From Oceanicola sp. 502str15 (GTDB taxonomy: Bacteria > Pseudomonadota > Alphaproteobacteria > Rhodobacterales > Rhodobacteraceae): a stretch of DNA of 64,000 nucleotides. The number at the start of each line of letters is the position of its first letter. Within the stretch, counting starts at the first letter, position 1. The stretch lies in the NCBI RefSeq assembly GCF_024105635.1, contig NZ_WYDQ01000001.1:4175390-4239389 (forward strand), written 5' to 3'. This document shows, one piece after another, positions 17,892-26,195 of the stretch. The position numbers and the translations under genes are program-made. The notes under the pieces were generated by a model. That model did no database searches, was not told the DNA's origin, and was given only the letters and a program-made list of their open reading frames with translations.

Positions 17892-17982
17892 CCTTTGCCG
17901 CCGCCTCCGCTTCCCGCAACATCCGGGTCGAGCGGCGCTCCCTTCCCGGTCATGCAGGCCGGGAAAGAGGGAGATCGCTGCA

Positions 17983-18699
17983 ATGAACTTTCTGCTGATC
18001 CACGGAAGCTGGCACGGGGCCTGGTGCTGGTACAAGGTCGCGCCGCGCCTGCGGACCGAGGGGCACCGGGTGATCGTGCCCGATCTGCCCGGACGCGGCC
18101 GGGCGCAGCGCCCGCGCCAGCTCATCACGCTCAACATGATGGCCGCCCACCTCGTACCACTGCTGCCCGAAGGCGAGAAAACCACCATCGTCGTTCACAG
18201 CCGCTATGGCATCCTCGCCTCCCGGCTGGCCGAACTGGCCCCCGAGCGCATCGCGCGCACCATCTACCTCGCCTCCTTCATGCTGCCCGAAGGCGCCCGC
18301 GCCGCCGATTACTTTCGCGCCGACAAGGGTTCGCTCCTGCGGCCTCATATCTCCATCGGAAAGCTCGGCATGTGGGATGATCTCGCCCCGGAGATCTACC
18401 ACGAGGGTCTCTACCACGATTGCAGCACAGAAGACGTGGCTCTGGGCCACAGCCTGCTTTGCCGCGAGCCCCTGCGCCCCGCGCTGGCCCGCCTTGCGCT
18501 CACAGCAGCTCGATACGGCTCCGTGCCCCGCGCCTACATCCGGCTGACCGAAGATCGCGCGGTAACGCCCGCATTGCAGGACAGATGCCTGTCCGAAACG
18601 CCGGTCGAACGGGTGGAAGAGCTGAAGGCCAGCCATTCGGCCTATTTCTCGCAGCCCGATGCGCTGGTCAAAACCATCCTGCGGCTTGGCGGAAGCTGA
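17983..18699 (+). CDS. Alpha/beta hydrolase, plant-esterase (SABP2/EstC)-like
   Basis: A 238-residue alpha/beta hydrolase. It opens with NFLLIHGSWHGAWCWYKVAP (oxyanion region) and DLPGRG. The nucleophile is Ser73 in VVHSRYG, the acid probably Asp in TEDRAVTPALQ, and the base His in KASHSAYFSQP. The nucleophile elbow is unusual: the first Gly of GxSxG is Val and the last is Tyr. The architecture is closest to the methylesterase/hydroxynitrile lyase-like group. Substrate unknown. The gene stands alone between a terminator and a convergent operon. Confidence 0.85.
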   Translation: MNFLLIHGSWHGAWCWYKVAPRLRTEGHRVIVPDLPGRGRAQRPRQLITLNMMAAHLVPLLPEGEKTTIVVHSRYGILASRLAELAPERIARTIYLASFMLPEGARAADYFRADKGSLLRPHISIGKLGMWDDLAPEIYHEGLYHDCSTEDVALGHSLLCREPLRPALARLALTAARYGSVPRAYIRLTEDRAVTPALQDRCLSETPVERVEELKASHSAYFSQPDALVKTILRLGGS

Positions 18700-18717
18700 A
18701 GGGCAGGGGCCCCGCGA

Positions 18718-19415: not shown

Positions 19416-19691
19416 TCAGTTGGCGTTGGTCAGGTAGAGGATCACGCCGACGACGATCACCGGGATGACATAGACCAGCAAGATCAGTTTCTTGCGCAGC
19501 CCGCTGTGATAGGCCGCCATCCCGCCCTCGATATAGGCACTCCGCGCCGCATCGTCACCCCCGTCCGGGTGATCCTCGGCCCAGCGGTCCTCCAGCTTTT
19601 CGCGGCGGATCGAGCGCGAGTAGATCGAGATGCAGAAATAGAGCACCGTCAGAACGATGAACCCCACCACGACCAGCCGTATCAACCCCAT
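19416..19691 (-). CDS. Small two-helix membrane protein
   Basis: A 91-residue protein with membrane helices at about residues 4-24 and 69-87. A charged middle segment (RREKLEDRWAEDHPDGGDDA) lies between them. It sits 3 nt downstream of the DUF6638-like gene and 8 nt upstream of the DUF1523 gene. I recognise no named family. Its context suggests that it is a membrane partner of the cassette. Confidence 0.78.
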   Translation of the reverse strand: MGLIRLVVVGFIVLTVLYFCISIYSRSIRREKLEDRWAEDHPDGGDDAARSAYIEGGMAAYHSGLRKKLILLVYVIPVIVVGVILYLTNAN

Positions 19692-19694
19692 CCG

Positions 19695-21053
19695 TTACCT
19701 CCTCACCGCGCCCCATGGCCCGACGATCCTGATGCGCTCTTCCGAGACACGGGGTTCGGGCGGGGGGCTTGGCTCTTCCATCGCATCTTCCCCGGTGCCG
19801 AAGAGTGCCGCCCGCGCCCCCTGCTTGTCCACCGCGTATTCGCGGGCGAGGAAATCGGCGACAAATTCCTTCTTGCTGTCCGGCCACTCCCGGTAGAGCG
19901 CGTAGAACAGCTCCTTGTGGCAGATGAAGAGCTGGCGCACGTCGAGCCGCGACAGCTCGGAAAGCAACTGGTTGATCAGATCGCGGTCGGGGTGGTTGGT
20001 GGCGCGCAGCGTATAGAAATAGGCCGGATGGCTCGAGGTAATCTTCGGCCAGCCCCCGCCCTGCTCGGCCCAGCGGACCAGCTCGTTCAGCGCATGAAAC
20101 TCCGGCGGCAGGGCGCTGCCAAGCGTCTGCGCCAGCTTGCGCAGATCGCCCCGCGAGCGCGAGGGCACGTCCTTGCCCAGCGTCGCGGCCACATCGACCA
20201 GGATGAAATCCATCTTCTGCTTCAGGATCGCCGTCGCATCGGTGCCTTTCGCCTTCACGATCGGCTCGACGAGGTTGTTCAGCTCCAGAAACTTCGCAAT
20301 CCCGGCCCGGTCGGAGAGGTCGAACAGATAGGGCGAGGGGATCTTGCCGATGCTTGCCTTGTCGCCGCAGGCAATCGTCGCCGGATGCTCCACATCGCGG
20401 AAAATGTAGAGCCCGCCAAAATGCGCCGTCCAGAAGTTGCCCTGGGTGAAGCTGGGCGCCTTGAAGGTCACCGGGTTGCGGGTGACATCCCCAGTCTGCT
20501 TGGCCAGCCCGATCATCTCGGCAATCAGCACATCATCCCACCAGGCATCGGGCTTGGTCTTGAAGGTGGCGATCTTCTCGGAAAGCGCCTCGGCCTGCTC
20601 GATATGCCCCGAGGTGGTATCGGCCCGCACGGTGATCTTCTTGATGTCGAAGAGGCGGGCGGGCGTGTTGACCTCGAAAACGGTATTATCCAGCTCCCCC
20701 AGCACCGCATCCCGCGAGGTCAGCGCAAAAAGCTGGCTCTCGTTCTCCTCGATGAACTGCCGCAGAATGCCGCGGCTCATGGAGAACTTGGCGTTCAGCA
20801 GGGGGGCGGTTTTCTGCGCGGTTGTGAGGAGGATGAACTGCCGGTTCACCCCGTTTGGGTTGAGATAGAGCAGATCGTCGAACTCGAAGGCGATCTCGGG
20901 GGAGAAGCCGGAGATATCGACGTGGAAGTCGGGCAGCTCCGTCCGCTTGCCGGTGAGCTTGTGGAGCGCCCGGTTGTAGCGGTCGATCAGGGCAGGGGAG
21001 GCGACCTCGATGAGGTTGCCGAACATCAGGCCGCGGGTGATGAGGCGTTTCAT
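19695..21053 (-). CDS. DUF6638-like uncharacterised protein
   Basis: A 452-residue soluble protein from the ATG at 21053. That start has a GGAGAGGA Shine-Dalgarno and overlaps the stop of the upstream PutAbiC gene by 4 nt (ATGA). It begins MKRLITRGLMFGNLIEVASP and has a proline- and glutamate-rich C-terminal tail (EEPSPPPEPRVSEE). I believe it belongs to the uncharacterised family DUF6638, but this is from memory of the sequence type and not a search. No catalytic motif is evident. It is part of the AAA-ATPase cassette. Confidence 0.7.
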   Translation of the reverse strand: MKRLITRGLMFGNLIEVASPALIDRYNRALHKLTGKRTELPDFHVDISGFSPEIAFEFDDLLYLNPNGVNRQFILLTTAQKTAPLLNAKFSMSRGILRQFIEENESQLFALTSRDAVLGELDNTVFEVNTPARLFDIKKITVRADTTSGHIEQAEALSEKIATFKTKPDAWWDDVLIAEMIGLAKQTGDVTRNPVTFKAPSFTQGNFWTAHFGGLYIFRDVEHPATIACGDKASIGKIPSPYLFDLSDRAGIAKFLELNNLVEPIVKAKGTDATAILKQKMDFILVDVAATLGKDVPSRSRGDLRKLAQTLGSALPPEFHALNELVRWAEQGGGWPKITSSHPAYFYTLRATNHPDRDLINQLLSELSRLDVRQLFICHKELFYALYREWPDSKKEFVADFLAREYAVDKQGARAALFGTGEDAMEEPSPPPEPRVSEERIRIVGPWGAVRR

Positions 21054-21931
21054 GATTCCTCTCCAAAGCAAGACGGAGGTACAAAGTCTCGATGCGCCTC
21101 GCTAATAAGTATGCCTTTTGGAAGATTGTTGAACAGCGCGAAAGTCTCCGCATATTTCATCATGTTGGCGCCGGTAGTGGTTTGGCAGTTATAAAATAGC
21201 ACGGCGAGTTCGTAGTCTGAAAAAAGTGCTCGAAACAGCTTCTTATGTCGAGGCTGGCAGTGTGGGTTCTCCGAAATCGTCCGCATTGCGTTATATGTGA
21301 AGCGAAAATAGTGGCCCAAATTTGCGCCTTGCTTTTCGTACAAATCCCGATATTCGGCTAGGGTTTCAGCCAATGATTCAGCCGGGGAAACACCGCTCCA
21401 ATCCTTGTCTTTGTCAAACAGGAGGTTGTAGAAGAACGGAAAGTAGTCTCTTCCTGATACTGTGAGCCGCTCTTCGCTCACCAACCGACCCTCCGAGAAC
21501 CTTAAAGGTCGGTATGTGTGTCTAATCGAACTGGTTATTGAATTTTGAGTTGAAATCAGCTCAAAGAATGAAGTTTCGAATCTCTGCTTCTCATAATTCA
21601 GGTTCGACTCGTGGAACTCTTCTTCAGTAGCAGAAAGTACTTCTCTCTGCGCCGCCAGCTCTTGGCTTTGAAGCCAGACGGTAACTATTATCCATAGAAA
21701 AGCGAGAGTTCCGGCTATCCCAGCTAGGGTATCACCAATCTCGTTTGAGCTCGACTTCAGGAACATGCTCCATCGCTCGGAACAAACCTTGCCCTGCCAA
21801 ACGTGAAACGAACAAACTTCTTGTTGGGCGAGGGCAAAGGTAACTAATCCGACGGTAGCTGTTCCAAGCAATCCCCAGATGATTGGATTCTGAATTCTCC
21901 AGAACGAGATTGGGGCTAGCTTGTCCCTCAC
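21050..21931 (-). CDS. Putative phage abortive infection protein (PutAbiC family)
   Basis: A 293-residue protein with two N-terminal membrane helices (about residues 16-36 and 68-88) and a coiled coil (90-117). Three blocks typical of PutAbiC follow: RFETSFFELISTQNSI (117-132), LGHYFRFTYN (205-214) and YELAVLFYNC (240-249). The family is linked to abortive infection, in which an infected cell dies or stalls before phage release. The start is a GTG overlapping the stop of the AAA ATPase gene (GTGA), and the stop overlaps the next ATG (ATGA). Base composition is much more AT-rich than its surroundings (for example 19 G/C in the 60 bases 21541-21600, my count), which points to recent horizontal acquisition. 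Confidence 0.82.
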   Translation of the reverse strand: MRDKLAPISFWRIQNPIIWGLLGTATVGLVTFALAQQEVCSFHVWQGKVCSERWSMFLKSSSNEIGDTLAGIAGTLAFLWIIVTVWLQSQELAAQREVLSATEEEFHESNLNYEKQRFETSFFELISTQNSITSSIRHTYRPLRFSEGRLVSEERLTVSGRDYFPFFYNLLFDKDKDWSGVSPAESLAETLAEYRDLYEKQGANLGHYFRFTYNAMRTISENPHCQPRHKKLFRALFSDYELAVLFYNCQTTTGANMMKYAETFALFNNLPKGILISEAHRDFVPPSCFGEES

Positions 21932-23862
21932 CCCTTCCCCTCCAAATACCGCCGCTTCGCCTCCTCCTGCCGCCCGAAGTCCCGCACCATCCCGTCAATC
22001 GCCACCTCGTCCGACTTGTCGGCGTAGCGGAACTCGCTATCCGCGTACCTATTAACCTCCTGAATCACCATCTCCATGGTGATCGGCTGGCGCAGCTCCG
22101 AAACCATCCCCAGCTTCTCTTCATATGGCTTGAACAGGAACAGCTCCGGCTCCTCCATCCACTCGTCGGGCAGCTCGAAGTCCATCGCGCGGACCTTCAC
22201 CGCGTCGGTGATGTTCTTGATCGCCCGCCCGGTAAACCGCTCATCCGCCTCCTGGATCGCCTTCAGGTAGCGGCCTACCTTGGCAATCGTGTCCAGCGCC
22301 CCGATCTCGGCCTGCACCCGGTCGAACACCTCCAGCAGCCCCGCCTCATGGGGCTTGCTATGCCCCTCGAAGCTGGCCGACACCGCCTTCTTGATCTCCT
22401 GCGCCGCATAGGCCTCGTGATCCCCGAGGGGCAGCGAATGGTTCTTGCCCATCAGCAGATAAAGAATGTCGATGTAATCCTCCCGCGTCTGAGGCCCGTC
22501 CACCAGGAACCGCGCCCCGGCCCGCTGCCGCAGGGCGTCATCCACGTTCTCCGGGTAGTTCGAGAACATCCCGAAGGTGCAGTTCCCCCGCACCACCGTG
22601 TTGGCCCCCGCAAAGGCCTCCATCAGCACCGCCGTCACCTCCTGCTGGCCGGCGCTGCTCTGCCGGTCGCCGCGCTTGCCCGCGATCTGGTCGATATCAT
22701 CCACCGTCCCAAACCCGATCACCCCAGGGTCCAGCACGTTGTTGATGAAGGCCTTCGCGTTCTGCCCCGACTTGCCCTGATAGCTGTCGATATTGTCGAT
22801 GCCGAAGTTCTGGTAGCGGAACGGATAGCCCGCCACACCGCAATATTCGCTCACCAGACCGGCCATCATCTGGATCAGCGTCGTCTTGCCGGTGCCCGGC
22901 GCGCCATCGCCCATGAAAGTGAAGATGAAGCCGCCCAACTCGACGAAGGGGTTCAGCTTGCGCTCGAAATCATAGGCCATGATCATCTTCGCCAGCCGCA
23001 TCGCCTGATACTTGGCGATGTGGTTGCCCACCACCTCGTTGGGCTTCTTGAACTGCATCACCAGCGTGCTGCCCTTGGCCTTGCGCGCCGGGGTAAAGCC
23101 CGCGATGGTCAGGTCATCGGCCTCCACGCGATACTTCGCGCCGGTGAAGGCCCCCACGCGCGGGGCGGTCTGGCCCCGAAGCGCCACCTTCTCCATCAGT
23201 TGCTCGGCATAGGCCATGACCGTGGCCACCAGCTTCGGCTCCGCATCGGCAAAGCTCGCCAGCTCCTGGTCCAGCTCCCAGAGGCAGCCGTGGAGCGCCA
23301 ACGGCGCGTTGTCGGTCAGCACCTCTTCCACCGCCCCGATCTCCACCGAAGCCTCGCCCGCCGAACTTGCCAGCAGGAAGGAGGTCGCATTGCCGAAGGA
23401 ATACATCACCGCCAGCGCCTCGGCGGCCAGAAGCTCGGAAAATTCCGCCTTGCGGGTCTCGGGCAGGCGGCCTTCAAGGTTTTCCTTCTTCAGCTCCACC
23501 AGCCCGGTCGCCTCGCCAAAGCCTTCGCCCACGGCGAGCGCCACGGCAATCGCGCGGCGCAGGGCGTGCAGAACCGTGGCCTGCGTGGGCGAAACCAGCG
23601 GGTCGCCCTCATCGGCGGACTCGATGCGCTCCACCAGCCGCACCCCCTCGGGGCGGGCGCTGCTGCGGGTCACCAGTCCCGGCGTGGTCGAGCGAAACCG
23701 CCGCCGTGTGCCAATCCCGGCCGAGCGCTCGGGCGTGGCGGCCTCCTTGGGTGCGGCGATCCGGGGGGTATGGTCGATGCCTTCCAGCATCCCCGCCGCC
23801 GCCTCGTAATGCTTGCGGATCTCTTCTTCCCGAAGTTCCATCTCGTCGCTCGAAAGGCTCAT
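21928..23862 (-). CDS. AAA-family ATPase of an uncharacterised cassette
   Basis: A 644-residue protein. The N-terminal 100 residues are charged and low in complexity, and a helical region follows. The ATPase core has Walker A GDGAPGTGKT (318-327), a Walker B-like IGFGTVDDID (382-391), a sensor-1 region GMFSNYPENVDDALRQRAGA with candidate arginine fingers at about 445-447, and a helical lid. The substrate is unknown. It is the central enzyme of the 18.7-26.2-kb operon and probably acts on, or remodels, a complex involving the coiled-coil and membrane partners. Confidence 0.82.
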   Translation of the reverse strand: MSLSSDEMELREEEIRKHYEAAAGMLEGIDHTPRIAAPKEAATPERSAGIGTRRRFRSTTPGLVTRSSARPEGVRLVERIESADEGDPLVSPTQATVLHALRRAIAVALAVGEGFGEATGLVELKKENLEGRLPETRKAEFSELLAAEALAVMYSFGNATSFLLASSAGEASVEIGAVEEVLTDNAPLALHGCLWELDQELASFADAEPKLVATVMAYAEQLMEKVALRGQTAPRVGAFTGAKYRVEADDLTIAGFTPARKAKGSTLVMQFKKPNEVVGNHIAKYQAMRLAKMIMAYDFERKLNPFVELGGFIFTFMGDGAPGTGKTTLIQMMAGLVSEYCGVAGYPFRYQNFGIDNIDSYQGKSGQNAKAFINNVLDPGVIGFGTVDDIDQIAGKRGDRQSSAGQQEVTAVLMEAFAGANTVVRGNCTFGMFSNYPENVDDALRQRAGARFLVDGPQTREDYIDILYLLMGKNHSLPLGDHEAYAAQEIKKAVSASFEGHSKPHEAGLLEVFDRVQAEIGALDTIAKVGRYLKAIQEADERFTGRAIKNITDAVKVRAMDFELPDEWMEEPELFLFKPYEEKLGMVSELRQPITMEMVIQEVNRYADSEFRYADKSDEVAIDGMVRDFGRQEEAKRRYLEGKG

Positions 23863-23930: not shown

Positions 23931-25061
23931 CTATCTGTAGCCAAACACCCGCCCACCGGGCGACACCACGAACTTGCGCACGCCCGAAAAGCCCGGCGGG
24001 TTCTTCTCGGCCAGCACCTGGTAGGGGCGTTCGGGCATGATGATGGCGCGTTGCTGCCGCGTGGCCCCGGTGTCGGCGCCGCGGCCCGAGAAAGGGTCGA
24101 GGGTGAATACCTCGCGCTCCACCGACGAAAACCAGCCCGCCTTCTCGCTGCGCACCCGTTCGCTCACCAGCTCTTCCTCGGTCCAGGCCAGCGCCCAGTC
24201 CTGCCCCTCGGGGGCCTTGGCCTCGGCCAGCACCTCGCAGAGCGGGCCGGATTGCACCGTATAGGCGGAAGAATACATCGGCCCCACGTGGAAGCGCCGG
24301 ATGCGCTTGGGGTGCAGGTCGTCGAAATCGGTATCGAAGCCTTGCGCGATGGTCAGCAGCTTCAGGCCTGAGAAGCTCTGCGCCATCAGATGAGCCTGCG
24401 CTGCGGGCCAGCGGCGCTCGTCCTTGGGCAGGCTCACGCGGCCGGAATCCTCGCAATCCATCAGGTAGATCACCGGCAGGTTCACCTGGCTGTCGAAGAT
24501 CGCCCAGTGGATCAGGAAGTTGCGCCGCTCGCCGCTGCTGCTCTGCCAGAGCGCCTCGGGGTCATTGCGCGCCCAGAAGATATTCTCGCCCAGCAACGCC
24601 TCGTAGTAGAGCCGCTGCGCCATGGCATATTGCAGCTTTGTCGGAATGCTCAGCTCGCCCACGATCTGGCGGATCATGTCATCCTTCAGCGCGGCGGCAT
24701 CGGGCATGTTCTGCAAATGCCGCCCGGCCTGCTGGGCATCCACCGCCATGGTCAACATTTCCTGAAACACCGGAAAGCCGCTCTCGTGCCGGTCAAAATC
24801 GAGCTTGCCCACCGGCGTGCCCTCGCGGCCCGTCAGCAGGTATTTGTTGCCGAGCGCCGCAAAGGCGTTCGACAGCCCGCCGATGTAGCGACCCAGAATG
24901 GTAACTTCCGCCTTCGAAAGGCTTCCCTCCACCTCCATCGCCGCCGCCACCTTGGCCAAATGCCCGGTGATCGCCTCGAACTTCGAGAAATACCGCCGCG
25001 TGGCAAACTCGTCGTTCAGCTGCGCGTGGTCGGCGGTGAGGGCCTTCTTGGTATCGGTCAT
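23931..25061 (-). CDS. Uncharacterised protein of the AAA-ATPase cassette
   Basis: A 376-residue soluble protein, mostly helical in its N-terminal half (RYFSKFEAITGHLAKVAAAM) and mixed later (FLIHWAIFDSQVNLPVIYLM). The C-terminus carries a repeated basic/glycine pattern. No signal peptide, membrane segment or recognisable catalytic motif is seen. It lies between the coiled-coil gene (57 nt upstream, with a family B repeat in the gap) and the AAA ATPase gene. I do not recognise the family. Confidence 0.75.
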   Translation of the reverse strand: MTDTKKALTADHAQLNDEFATRRYFSKFEAITGHLAKVAAAMEVEGSLSKAEVTILGRYIGGLSNAFAALGNKYLLTGREGTPVGKLDFDRHESGFPVFQEMLTMAVDAQQAGRHLQNMPDAAALKDDMIRQIVGELSIPTKLQYAMAQRLYYEALLGENIFWARNDPEALWQSSSGERRNFLIHWAIFDSQVNLPVIYLMDCEDSGRVSLPKDERRWPAAQAHLMAQSFSGLKLLTIAQGFDTDFDDLHPKRIRRFHVGPMYSSAYTVQSGPLCEVLAEAKAPEGQDWALAWTEEELVSERVRSEKAGWFSSVEREVFTLDPFSGRGADTGATRQQRAIIMPERPYQVLAEKNPPGFSGVRKFVVSPGGRVFGYR

Positions 25062-25070
25062 GCCGTTCCC

Positions 25071-25094
25071 GTAGGCTGGGTGAAACCCACCACC
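25071..25094 (+). repeat. Dispersed intergenic repeat, family B (diverged)
   Basis: GTAGGCTGGGTGAAACCCACC plus ACC, with GGGT/ACCC arms. It lies between two genes of the minus-strand cassette. Confidence 0.55.
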
Positions 25095-25118
25095 CCCCGT
25101 GCGGAGGGTGGCAAGGGC

Positions 25119-26195
25119 TTACGCCCCGTAAATATTCTTGTCGTGCTTCTCGACAATCTTCTCGAAGCGCCGGGCAAAGCGTTCGTCAGCCTTGGCCTTC
25201 TGTTCCAGCACCTTGCGGGCAAAGACCATGTGGTCTTCATGGGCCTCCATCATGTCGGCCATCCGCTGGTTGGTGGCCGCGCCGATGCCCGCCATGGCGG
25301 CCTGGGCCTCCTGGTCGGTCTTCACCCCGATCTCGTTGATCCGGTGGGCGACGTCCTGCTGCTGGGCGGTCTTCAGCGACTTGGTGAGCGCATCATAGAG
25401 CACCACGCGCTGCTTGGTGTCTGTCTGCAGCTTGTTGATCAGCACCATCTGGGTTGCGGCCTGGTTCTGCAGCGAGTCGACCCAGGTCTTGCCCTTCTCG
25501 ATGTAGCGCTCCAGCGTCTGACTCTTGGCCAGCTTGACCTGCTCCTCCTGCACCAGCTCGTTGTACTTGTTGTTCAACTCGGCCAGCTCGGTTTCCAGCT
25601 TGGTGCGGGCGGCGGCGTCCTGCTCGACCGAGATCTTGTTTTCCAGCTCGATGATCTTGGGATCGAGGGCGGTGACTTCGGCGCGCAGCGCCTCAAGTTC
25701 GCCCACAGTCAGCTCGCGCTCGTCGAGGGTTTCGGTCAGGTTGGCCTCCACCTTCACCTTCTCGCCGTTCAGGATGGTCAGCTGGTTTTCCAGCAGCTTC
25801 ACGATCACGTCCGACTTGGAGATGAGGTCTTGCAGCTTGTCGTCGATATTGGCGGTGCGGATGCGCTCCTGCCGCAGGCTCTCGGATTTGCCCGCCGAGA
25901 AGATGCCCACGAAGCTCTCCCAGCCGGTCTTGTCGCGGATCTCCGAGAAATCCTCCGAGAAGCCGGTGGTCACATCGTCGAGGCCCATGATGAGCTCTGC
26001 GATATTGGCGTTCATAAGCTCGGTGTGCTGGTGCACGTCCTCAAGCGTGGCGTTCTCGATATCGATCTGAATGTCCTGCCCCTCGGCCATCTTCTGGCGG
26101 GCGGTCTCGATCCGGCTCGAAAGCTCGGAGATCTTGCCCTGGGTCTCGGCCACCTGGGCCTGGGATTTCTCGATCATCGCATCAAAATCGGCCAT
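25119..26195 (-). CDS. Long coiled-coil protein, first gene of the AAA-ATPase cassette
   Basis: A 358-residue acidic protein that is almost entirely helical. Heptad-rich coiled coil runs over about residues 1-45 and 125-235. A conserved-looking block follows (ATQMVLINKLQTDTKQRVVL, then YDALTKSLKTAQQQD). It has no signal peptide or membrane helix. The length and the helical block are faintly reminiscent of TelA-type proteins, but I cannot assert membership. It starts the minus-strand operon and is transcribed divergently from the BCCT transporter gene. Confidence 0.75.
   Translation of the reverse strand: MADFDAMIEKSQAQVAETQGKISELSSRIETARQKMAEGQDIQIDIENATLEDVHQHTELMNANIAELIMGLDDVTTGFSEDFSEIRDKTGWESFVGIFSAGKSESLRQERIRTANIDDKLQDLISKSDVIVKLLENQLTILNGEKVKVEANLTETLDERELTVGELEALRAEVTALDPKIIELENKISVEQDAAARTKLETELAELNNKYNELVQEEQVKLAKSQTLERYIEKGKTWVDSLQNQAATQMVLINKLQTDTKQRVVLYDALTKSLKTAQQQDVAHRINEIGVKTDQEAQAAMAGIGAATNQRMADMMEAHEDHMVFARKVLEQKAKADERFARRFEKIVEKHDKNIYGA

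Follow-up and report, generated by a model that had tools for sequence, protein, structure and literature searches.

The locus lies within a 64-kb stretch of DNA (the window) and comprises a run of genes on the reverse strand, in which a gene for a PutAbiC-like membrane protein is set between those for an AAA ATPase and a DUF6638 protein (Table 1). We refer to the AAA-DUF6638 junction as the slot, to whatever stands in it as the occupant or cargo, and to the surrounding genes of the cassette as the core. The slot gene and its 4-nt overlaps with both neighbours are present as a preliminary description of this DNA had reported them, and these overlaps make translational coupling of the slot gene to the cassette plausible.

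Table 1. Genes and sequence features of the cassette, in order of window position.
Feature	Position	Strand	Details
DUF1523 protein (PF07509), 229 aa	18718..19407	(-)	Pfam, E 3e-61
91-aa core protein, hydrophobic by eye	19416..19691	(-)	adjoins DUF6638 in relatives
DUF6638 protein (PF20343), 452 aa	19695..21053	(-)	Pfam, E 1.8e-222
Slot (cargo) gene, PutAbiC-like membrane protein	21050..21931	(-)	293 codons, GTG start
ATGA, cargo stop sharing bases with DUF6638 start codon	21050..21053	(-)	4-nt overlap
GGAGAGGA at cargo gene 3' end, likely ribosome-binding site for DUF6638	21057..21064	(-)	read by eye
AAA ATPase (PF00004), 644 aa	21928..23862	(-)	Pfam
GTGA, AAA stop sharing bases with cargo start codon	21928..21931	(-)	4-nt overlap
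GGAGG within last AAA codons, likely ribosome-binding site of cargo gene	21939..21943	(-)	by eye; 7 nt ahead of cargo GTG
376-aa core protein without named family	23931..25061	(-)	family searches unmatched; aligned with homologues
358-aa coiled-coil-like core protein	25119..26195	(-)	weak family matches, none over cut-off

The slot gene also differs in base composition from its neighbours, as first described, with a GC fraction of 0.475 against 0.650 for the AAA gene, 0.630 for DUF6638 and 0.664 for the window. A recount of positions 21541-21600 returned the same 19 G/C as before, which is the window minimum for any 60-nt stretch and is first reached at 21513. The other 882-nt stretches of the window that do not overlap the cargo gene had a mean GC of 0.664 (sd 0.037) and a minimum of 0.582; no window stretch of equal length is as AT-rich as the cargo gene, whose AT-richness therefore lies far outside ordinary window variation.

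Because residues 1-55 of the encoded protein align with other slot proteins, we favour the GTG start over the internal methionine, 55 residues downstream, at which the database copy (P0001, 238 aa) begins. An HMM search placed the protein in putAbiC (PF16872), the family to which it had previously been assigned; the likeness, which is one of sequence alone, covers residues 204-272 in the C-terminal part (E 8.6e-14) and scores 52.3 bits against the curated Pfam cut-off of 22. Two membrane segments were predicted by simple hydropathy, and a structure model of the protein reached a pLDDT of 71.7, with a weak C-terminal part. Among mobile elements, its relatives comprise phrog_8999 (2.9e-16 in PHROGs), three phage records and ten plasmid records, and all the phage and plasmid relatives are less than 60% identical to it. 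A PADLOC search at E 1 returned no match for the window protein, the AbiC model included, and the PADLOC AbiC identity was rejected. Two other slot alleles were also sought in the window's own genome, and neither was matched in this search, which was run without a positive control.

Comparison of close relatives showed that the occupant differs between them while both flanks are conserved. When the full 64 kb was compared with four relatives from the same genus, the replaced stretch began at 21054 in all four and ended at 21893, 21923, 21926 and 21927, next to the AAA stop codon at 21928-21930; in three of the four, DNA homology broke off at a distance of 5 nt or less from the flanking genes. 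Seven genus genomes held five slot families, between which BLASTP gave no link at 1e-5: the PutAbiC-like protein of the window, an exonuclease with BRCT (L086), a 210-aa protein (L088), a 241-aa pair (L002 and L083, the latter with a DUF4145 match under the cut-off) and an HNH-type pair (L087 and L084, the latter shortened to 128 codons). Genomes G003 and G005 carried unrelated slot genes despite 93-96% DNA identity over the cassette genes measured. Across the seven genomes, identity at fourfold sites climbed toward the slot from both sides, and in a window-wide control, from which DUF6638 was absent, the 3' end of the AAA gene ranked just fourth of 20 genes. This pattern at synonymous sites is suggestive of a recombination footprint, though one that appears unexceptional against the 20 window genes.

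The earlier reading was that PutAbiC had been inserted precisely between AAA and DUF6638 genes that otherwise directly adjoin. This reading is supported in part, in that PutAbiC has a foreign composition, occurs in 1 of the 7 genus genomes, is missing from the other six, and is bordered by breaks that fall at the flanking genes. The rest of it needs correcting: all six genomes without PutAbiC hold 573-874 bp of different sequence in the slot, and in the wider sample described below the AAA and DUF6638 genes lie within 20 bp of each other in just 2 of 149 loci. That PutAbiC arrived recently, as the one insertion in an operon without other interruptions, is therefore very improbable.

The wider sample used the best 80 of 584 confirmed loci from a scan with the AAA protein, together with 60 further stretches from DUF6638 genomes that were hand-picked as lying inside their contigs, and it is skewed toward close AAA homologues. 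From 175 loci we obtained 149 distinct slots, having dropped 17 duplicates and 9 loci whose stretch lacked a flank (DUF6638 in 2, AAA in 7); some of these last 7 may have had longer slots or been rearranged. Slot length had quartiles of 361, 671 and 955 bp and ranged from -4 to 2104 bp, with 20 of the 149 slots at 200 bp or less. ORFs in the operon direction reached at least 120 codons in 90 slots and at least 180 codons in 67, whereas ORFs of at least 180 codons were found in only 1/106, 1/126, 0/146 and 0/144 loci at four other operon junctions; 59 of the 149 slots had no operon-direction ORF of 120 codons. At a threshold of at least 100 codons the counts were 120/149 for the slot against 23/106 and 10/126 for two other junctions, which means that the slot is not the sole variable place in the operon. 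On the evidence of these sequences, the AAA-DUF6638 junction is a standing variable slot, with PutAbiC as one of its many occupants.

At the 376-aa/AAA junction, an ORF that reached 180 codons was present in one locus of the 126, L011. This ORF (L011:5401-6966) has 521 codons and resembles a membrane protein.

Occupants were called AT-shifted if their ORF ran to 180 codons or more and its GC fraction was at least 0.06 under that of the flanks. Such ORFs were present in 52 of the 149 slots, and their proteins fell into 18 clusters without a BLASTP link at 1e-5, so that the AT-rich occupants represent many unrelated families, several of them of defence type. When 28 slot proteins were scanned singly against Pfam, 11 had a domain over the cut-off and 17 had none. 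The domains found across occupants were HNH (L087), Mrr (L011, L188), RNase_T with BRCT (L086), DUF433 and PIN_10 in two neighbouring genes (L010), DUF2971 (L049), DUF559 (L028 and L143, in a cluster that is itself GC-rich at 0.69), AbiJ_NTD4 (L112) and SLFN_AlbA_2 (L180). We also ran PADLOC on 44 hand-chosen slot proteins (one from a 134-codon gene and 43 from the 61 ORFs without the anchor that reached 150 codons; the 18 left out were mostly GC-rich or extra members of one cluster) and on a control of 44 mechanically called ORFs outside the cassette, taken from 95 that were non-redundant. The slot set, which was hand-chosen and less strictly filtered for redundancy, matched 20 models with a best E of 9.2e-33, against 7 models and a best E of 2.5e-6 in the control. 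This contrast supports a bias of the occupants toward defence, short of proof.

Many occupants fit the junction closely, starting on the AAA stop codon and ending on the DUF6638 start codon. Among the 52 AT-shifted occupants, 4-nt overlaps were present at the start in 22, at the end in 30 and at both in 13, and 27 of the 52 loci were tight at both ends. Across all 149 loci the AAA gene terminated in GTGA in 81 and ATGA in 31, and DUF6638 began with ATGAAA in 81. The motif at the AAA stop was equally frequent whether or not the slot was filled (37/52 occupied loci and 43/59 loci without an ORF of 120 codons), which indicates that it belongs to the core gene itself. The ATGA of DUF6638, on the other hand, was commoner in occupied loci (49/52 vs 37/59). 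Ribosome-site-like matches of at least 5 bases at the AAA end, counted without a random control, occurred in 32 of the 37 occupied and 32 of the 43 unoccupied ATGA/GTGA loci. Ahead of the DUF6638 start, a match of at least 5 bases was present in 7 of 30 occupants (control fraction 0.07) and one of at least 4 bases in 17 of 30 (control 0.22). Two glycine columns in the AAA tail ranked first and second of 43 in their use of GGG codons (0.75 each; median 0.29); since two non-tail glycine columns reached 0.74 and 0.72, selection for GGG codons in the tail is supported only modestly.

These observations bear on whether the slot is merely endured. If insertions that spare the frames of their neighbours were passively tolerated, the cargo would be selfish or decaying and would have no common purpose; the many unnamed occupants, the shortened HNH-type copy in L084 and the 20 slots of 200 bp or less would all be in keeping with this. 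We consider it distinctly unlikely, given that the occupants have defence-type domains and stronger PADLOC matches than the flanking controls, that overlaps are kept in many loci, and that the reading frames are long and intact. Instead, we think it probable that a conserved operon of the Rhodobacteraceae has, at its AAA-DUF6638 junction, a standing slot that takes one cargo gene of defence-like kind. Counting against this are the 59 slots without an ORF of 120 codons, the short, native-looking GC-rich proteins in others, the 17 of 28 singly scanned slot proteins with no Pfam family over the cut-off, and the ORFs at two neighbouring junctions. Homologous recombination through the core genes on either side would exchange the occupants, a route that would preserve the start and stop overlaps at both ends. 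For small foreign genes the slot would offer an expressed site: transcription would come from the core operon, ribosomes terminating at the AAA stop could reinitiate to translate the occupant, and translation would return to the core frame at DUF6638.

The occupant of the window, in this arrangement, is probably a membrane-anchored protein of abortive-infection type, built of membrane segments, a long helix and a C-terminal PutAbiC domain, which when triggered would stop the growth of infected cells or damage their membrane. The effector reading is drawn from the family name, the two predicted membrane segments and the company of defence-type occupants; the protein could alternatively be a regulator or decaying cargo.

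The N-terminal half of the window protein, the membrane anchor, is common to 17 occupants, in which N63, G66, D67, A70, G71, L76, Q88, E91 and L92 are invariant. PF16872 itself was found in only 3 of these 17 proteins, all three AT-shifted, and in none of the 44 other, hand-chosen slot proteins scanned, so that PutAbiC is far from a fixture of the site at normal GC, the case that would have spoken against its foreign origin. The C-termini of the 17 proteins fell into 9 clusters, and PADLOC returned one AbiC match (0.0011) and two AbiP matches (best 1.7e-6) among them. We extended the comparison to 137 sequences (120 listed relatives and the 17 slot proteins, the window protein being counted twice), in which the last 120 residues formed 42 clusters under the stricter of two cuts, the two biggest having 59 and 26 members. 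This was the cut we adopted, as a looser single-linkage cut gave one large cluster of 126/130; the count of 42 could be inflated by rapid divergence. In one pair, P0009 and P0099, both named Phaeobacter inhibens, identity was 76% over residues 1-124 with nothing significant beyond, a pattern that appears better explained by a switched C-terminal part. Polymorphic proteins combine a constant N-terminus with a switched C-terminus, and P0009 and P0099, compared whatever their locus, resemble them in having a shared N-terminus and a divergent C-terminus. The likeness is one of layout alone, and we do not extend it to an export signal, toxin domain or immunity gene. Matches to the window protein were found in 22 of 388 family genomes, adjoining DUF6638 in 13, elsewhere in a genome that has DUF6638 in 5, in a genome without DUF6638 in 3, and unplaceable in 1.

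The core genes are widespread in the family and well conserved. DUF6638 was present in 174 of 394 family genomes, drawn from 393 genera, and exceeded the cut-off in 5 of 289 genomes of the class, four of these 5 being Rhodobacteraceae. Of 149 family genomes scanned, 63 had the AAA gene, and all 63 likewise had DUF6638; at least four DUF6638 genomes (G050, G074, G102 and G114) were unmatched for AAA, provided that they were among the 149. Against 19 aligned homologues, the AAA protein was 72-78% identical and the 358-aa protein 75-81%, the latter above its 376-aa neighbour, and this high identity across genera argues for a steady function of the core's own. The 91-aa protein had no Pfam family over the cut-off. 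In PDB profile searches the 358-aa protein (at E 0.1) and AAA (at E 0.001) went unmatched, while the 376-aa protein and DUF6638 each had a single match at chance level (0.24 and 0.59, respectively); a structure model of DUF6638 (pLDDT 78.2) had no PDB fold match at E 0.001. In PADLOC, AAA weakly matched TRIP13 (3.5e-4) and IetA (0.005), and the 358-aa protein LmuB (5.4e-5); these matches may reflect generic AAA and coiled-coil sequence.

An alternative to which such matches lend a little weight is that the core operon works as a modular system of immunity or stress response: a trigger would be sensed by the AAA, coiled-coil and membrane proteins, with the slot gene as an interchangeable effector. 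The occupants overlap their neighbours inside the operon instead of standing last in it, which would suit this, as would the co-occurrence of the core genes and the single N-terminal anchor with its 9 clusters of C-termini across 17 slots. Yet some occupants, for instance Mrr or the DUF433/PIN pair, would be expected to act alone; 59 slots lack an ORF of 120 codons, the PADLOC matches of the core are weak, and, unlike fast-evolving defence genes, the 358-aa and AAA proteins keep 72-81% identity between the genera aligned. We therefore regard a modular system as unlikely, if conceivable, and hold in the same doubt its corollary, an uncharacterised immune platform whose sensing core is translationally coupled to an effector swapped in each lineage by allelic replacement.

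The cargo slot that we favour has counterparts among known hotspots. In Pseudomonas aeruginosa, the core defence hotspots cDHS1 and cDHS2 have median sizes of 26 kb and 6 kb (PMC10250203). They resemble the slot in having fixed core-gene flanks with varied immune genes between, and cDHS1 further resembles the slot of the window in its lowered GC inside. They differ from it in that the slot mostly holds one gene, lies inside an operon, often overlaps both neighbours and recurs in many genera of one family. The slot thus has the conserved flanks and variable content of a core defence hotspot without being a multi-gene island, its median being 671 bp and its largest member 2104 bp among the 149 slots (longer ones may be among those dropped). 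Phages and their satellites also have variable loci that carry diverse anti-phage systems (PMC9122126). Those loci lie in phages and satellites; the cassette here contained no phage structural or integrase family in the proteins scanned, neither in 7 searched with Pfam nor, apart from weak matches, in 5 searched with PHROGs, although the cargo has phage relatives.

Core genes that flank a defence hotspot are thus already known, and the slot differs from such hotspots in scale and position. Our literature searches, whose coverage took in few subscription papers, found no earlier account of the slot, and no paper was found on DUF6638, putAbiC or PF16872. If the proposal is correct, new small anti-phage genes could be harvested by reading the AAA-DUF6638 interval across the family, where many occupants match no named family. 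The slot would also be a natural experiment in the exchange of foreign genes inside an operon with start and stop overlaps preserved, and it points to a widespread core operon of unassigned role.

Several further observations concern other sequence in and around the cassette. Many slots hold short, GC-rich and native-looking proteins, roughly 105-140 aa long and predicted to have about three membrane helices (L003, L004, L011, L012, L029, L043 and others), which belong to several families without clear links and may represent the ancestral occupant. In the 64-kb comparison, two more stretches were replaced in some of the four genus relatives. The stretch at 17892-18717, immediately past DUF1523, was replaced in all four; in the window it contains what we take to be an alpha/beta-hydrolase-like gene, whereas two relatives have ORFs of 299 and 291 codons there and the others have shorter ones. 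It is perhaps a further variable position of the cassette. The junction between the 358-aa and 376-aa genes (25062-25123) spans about 60 bp in the window against 243-725 bp in three relatives, and in G003 it holds two small ORFs, of 140 and 81 codons, which resemble a toxin-antitoxin pair of Phd/PemK type.
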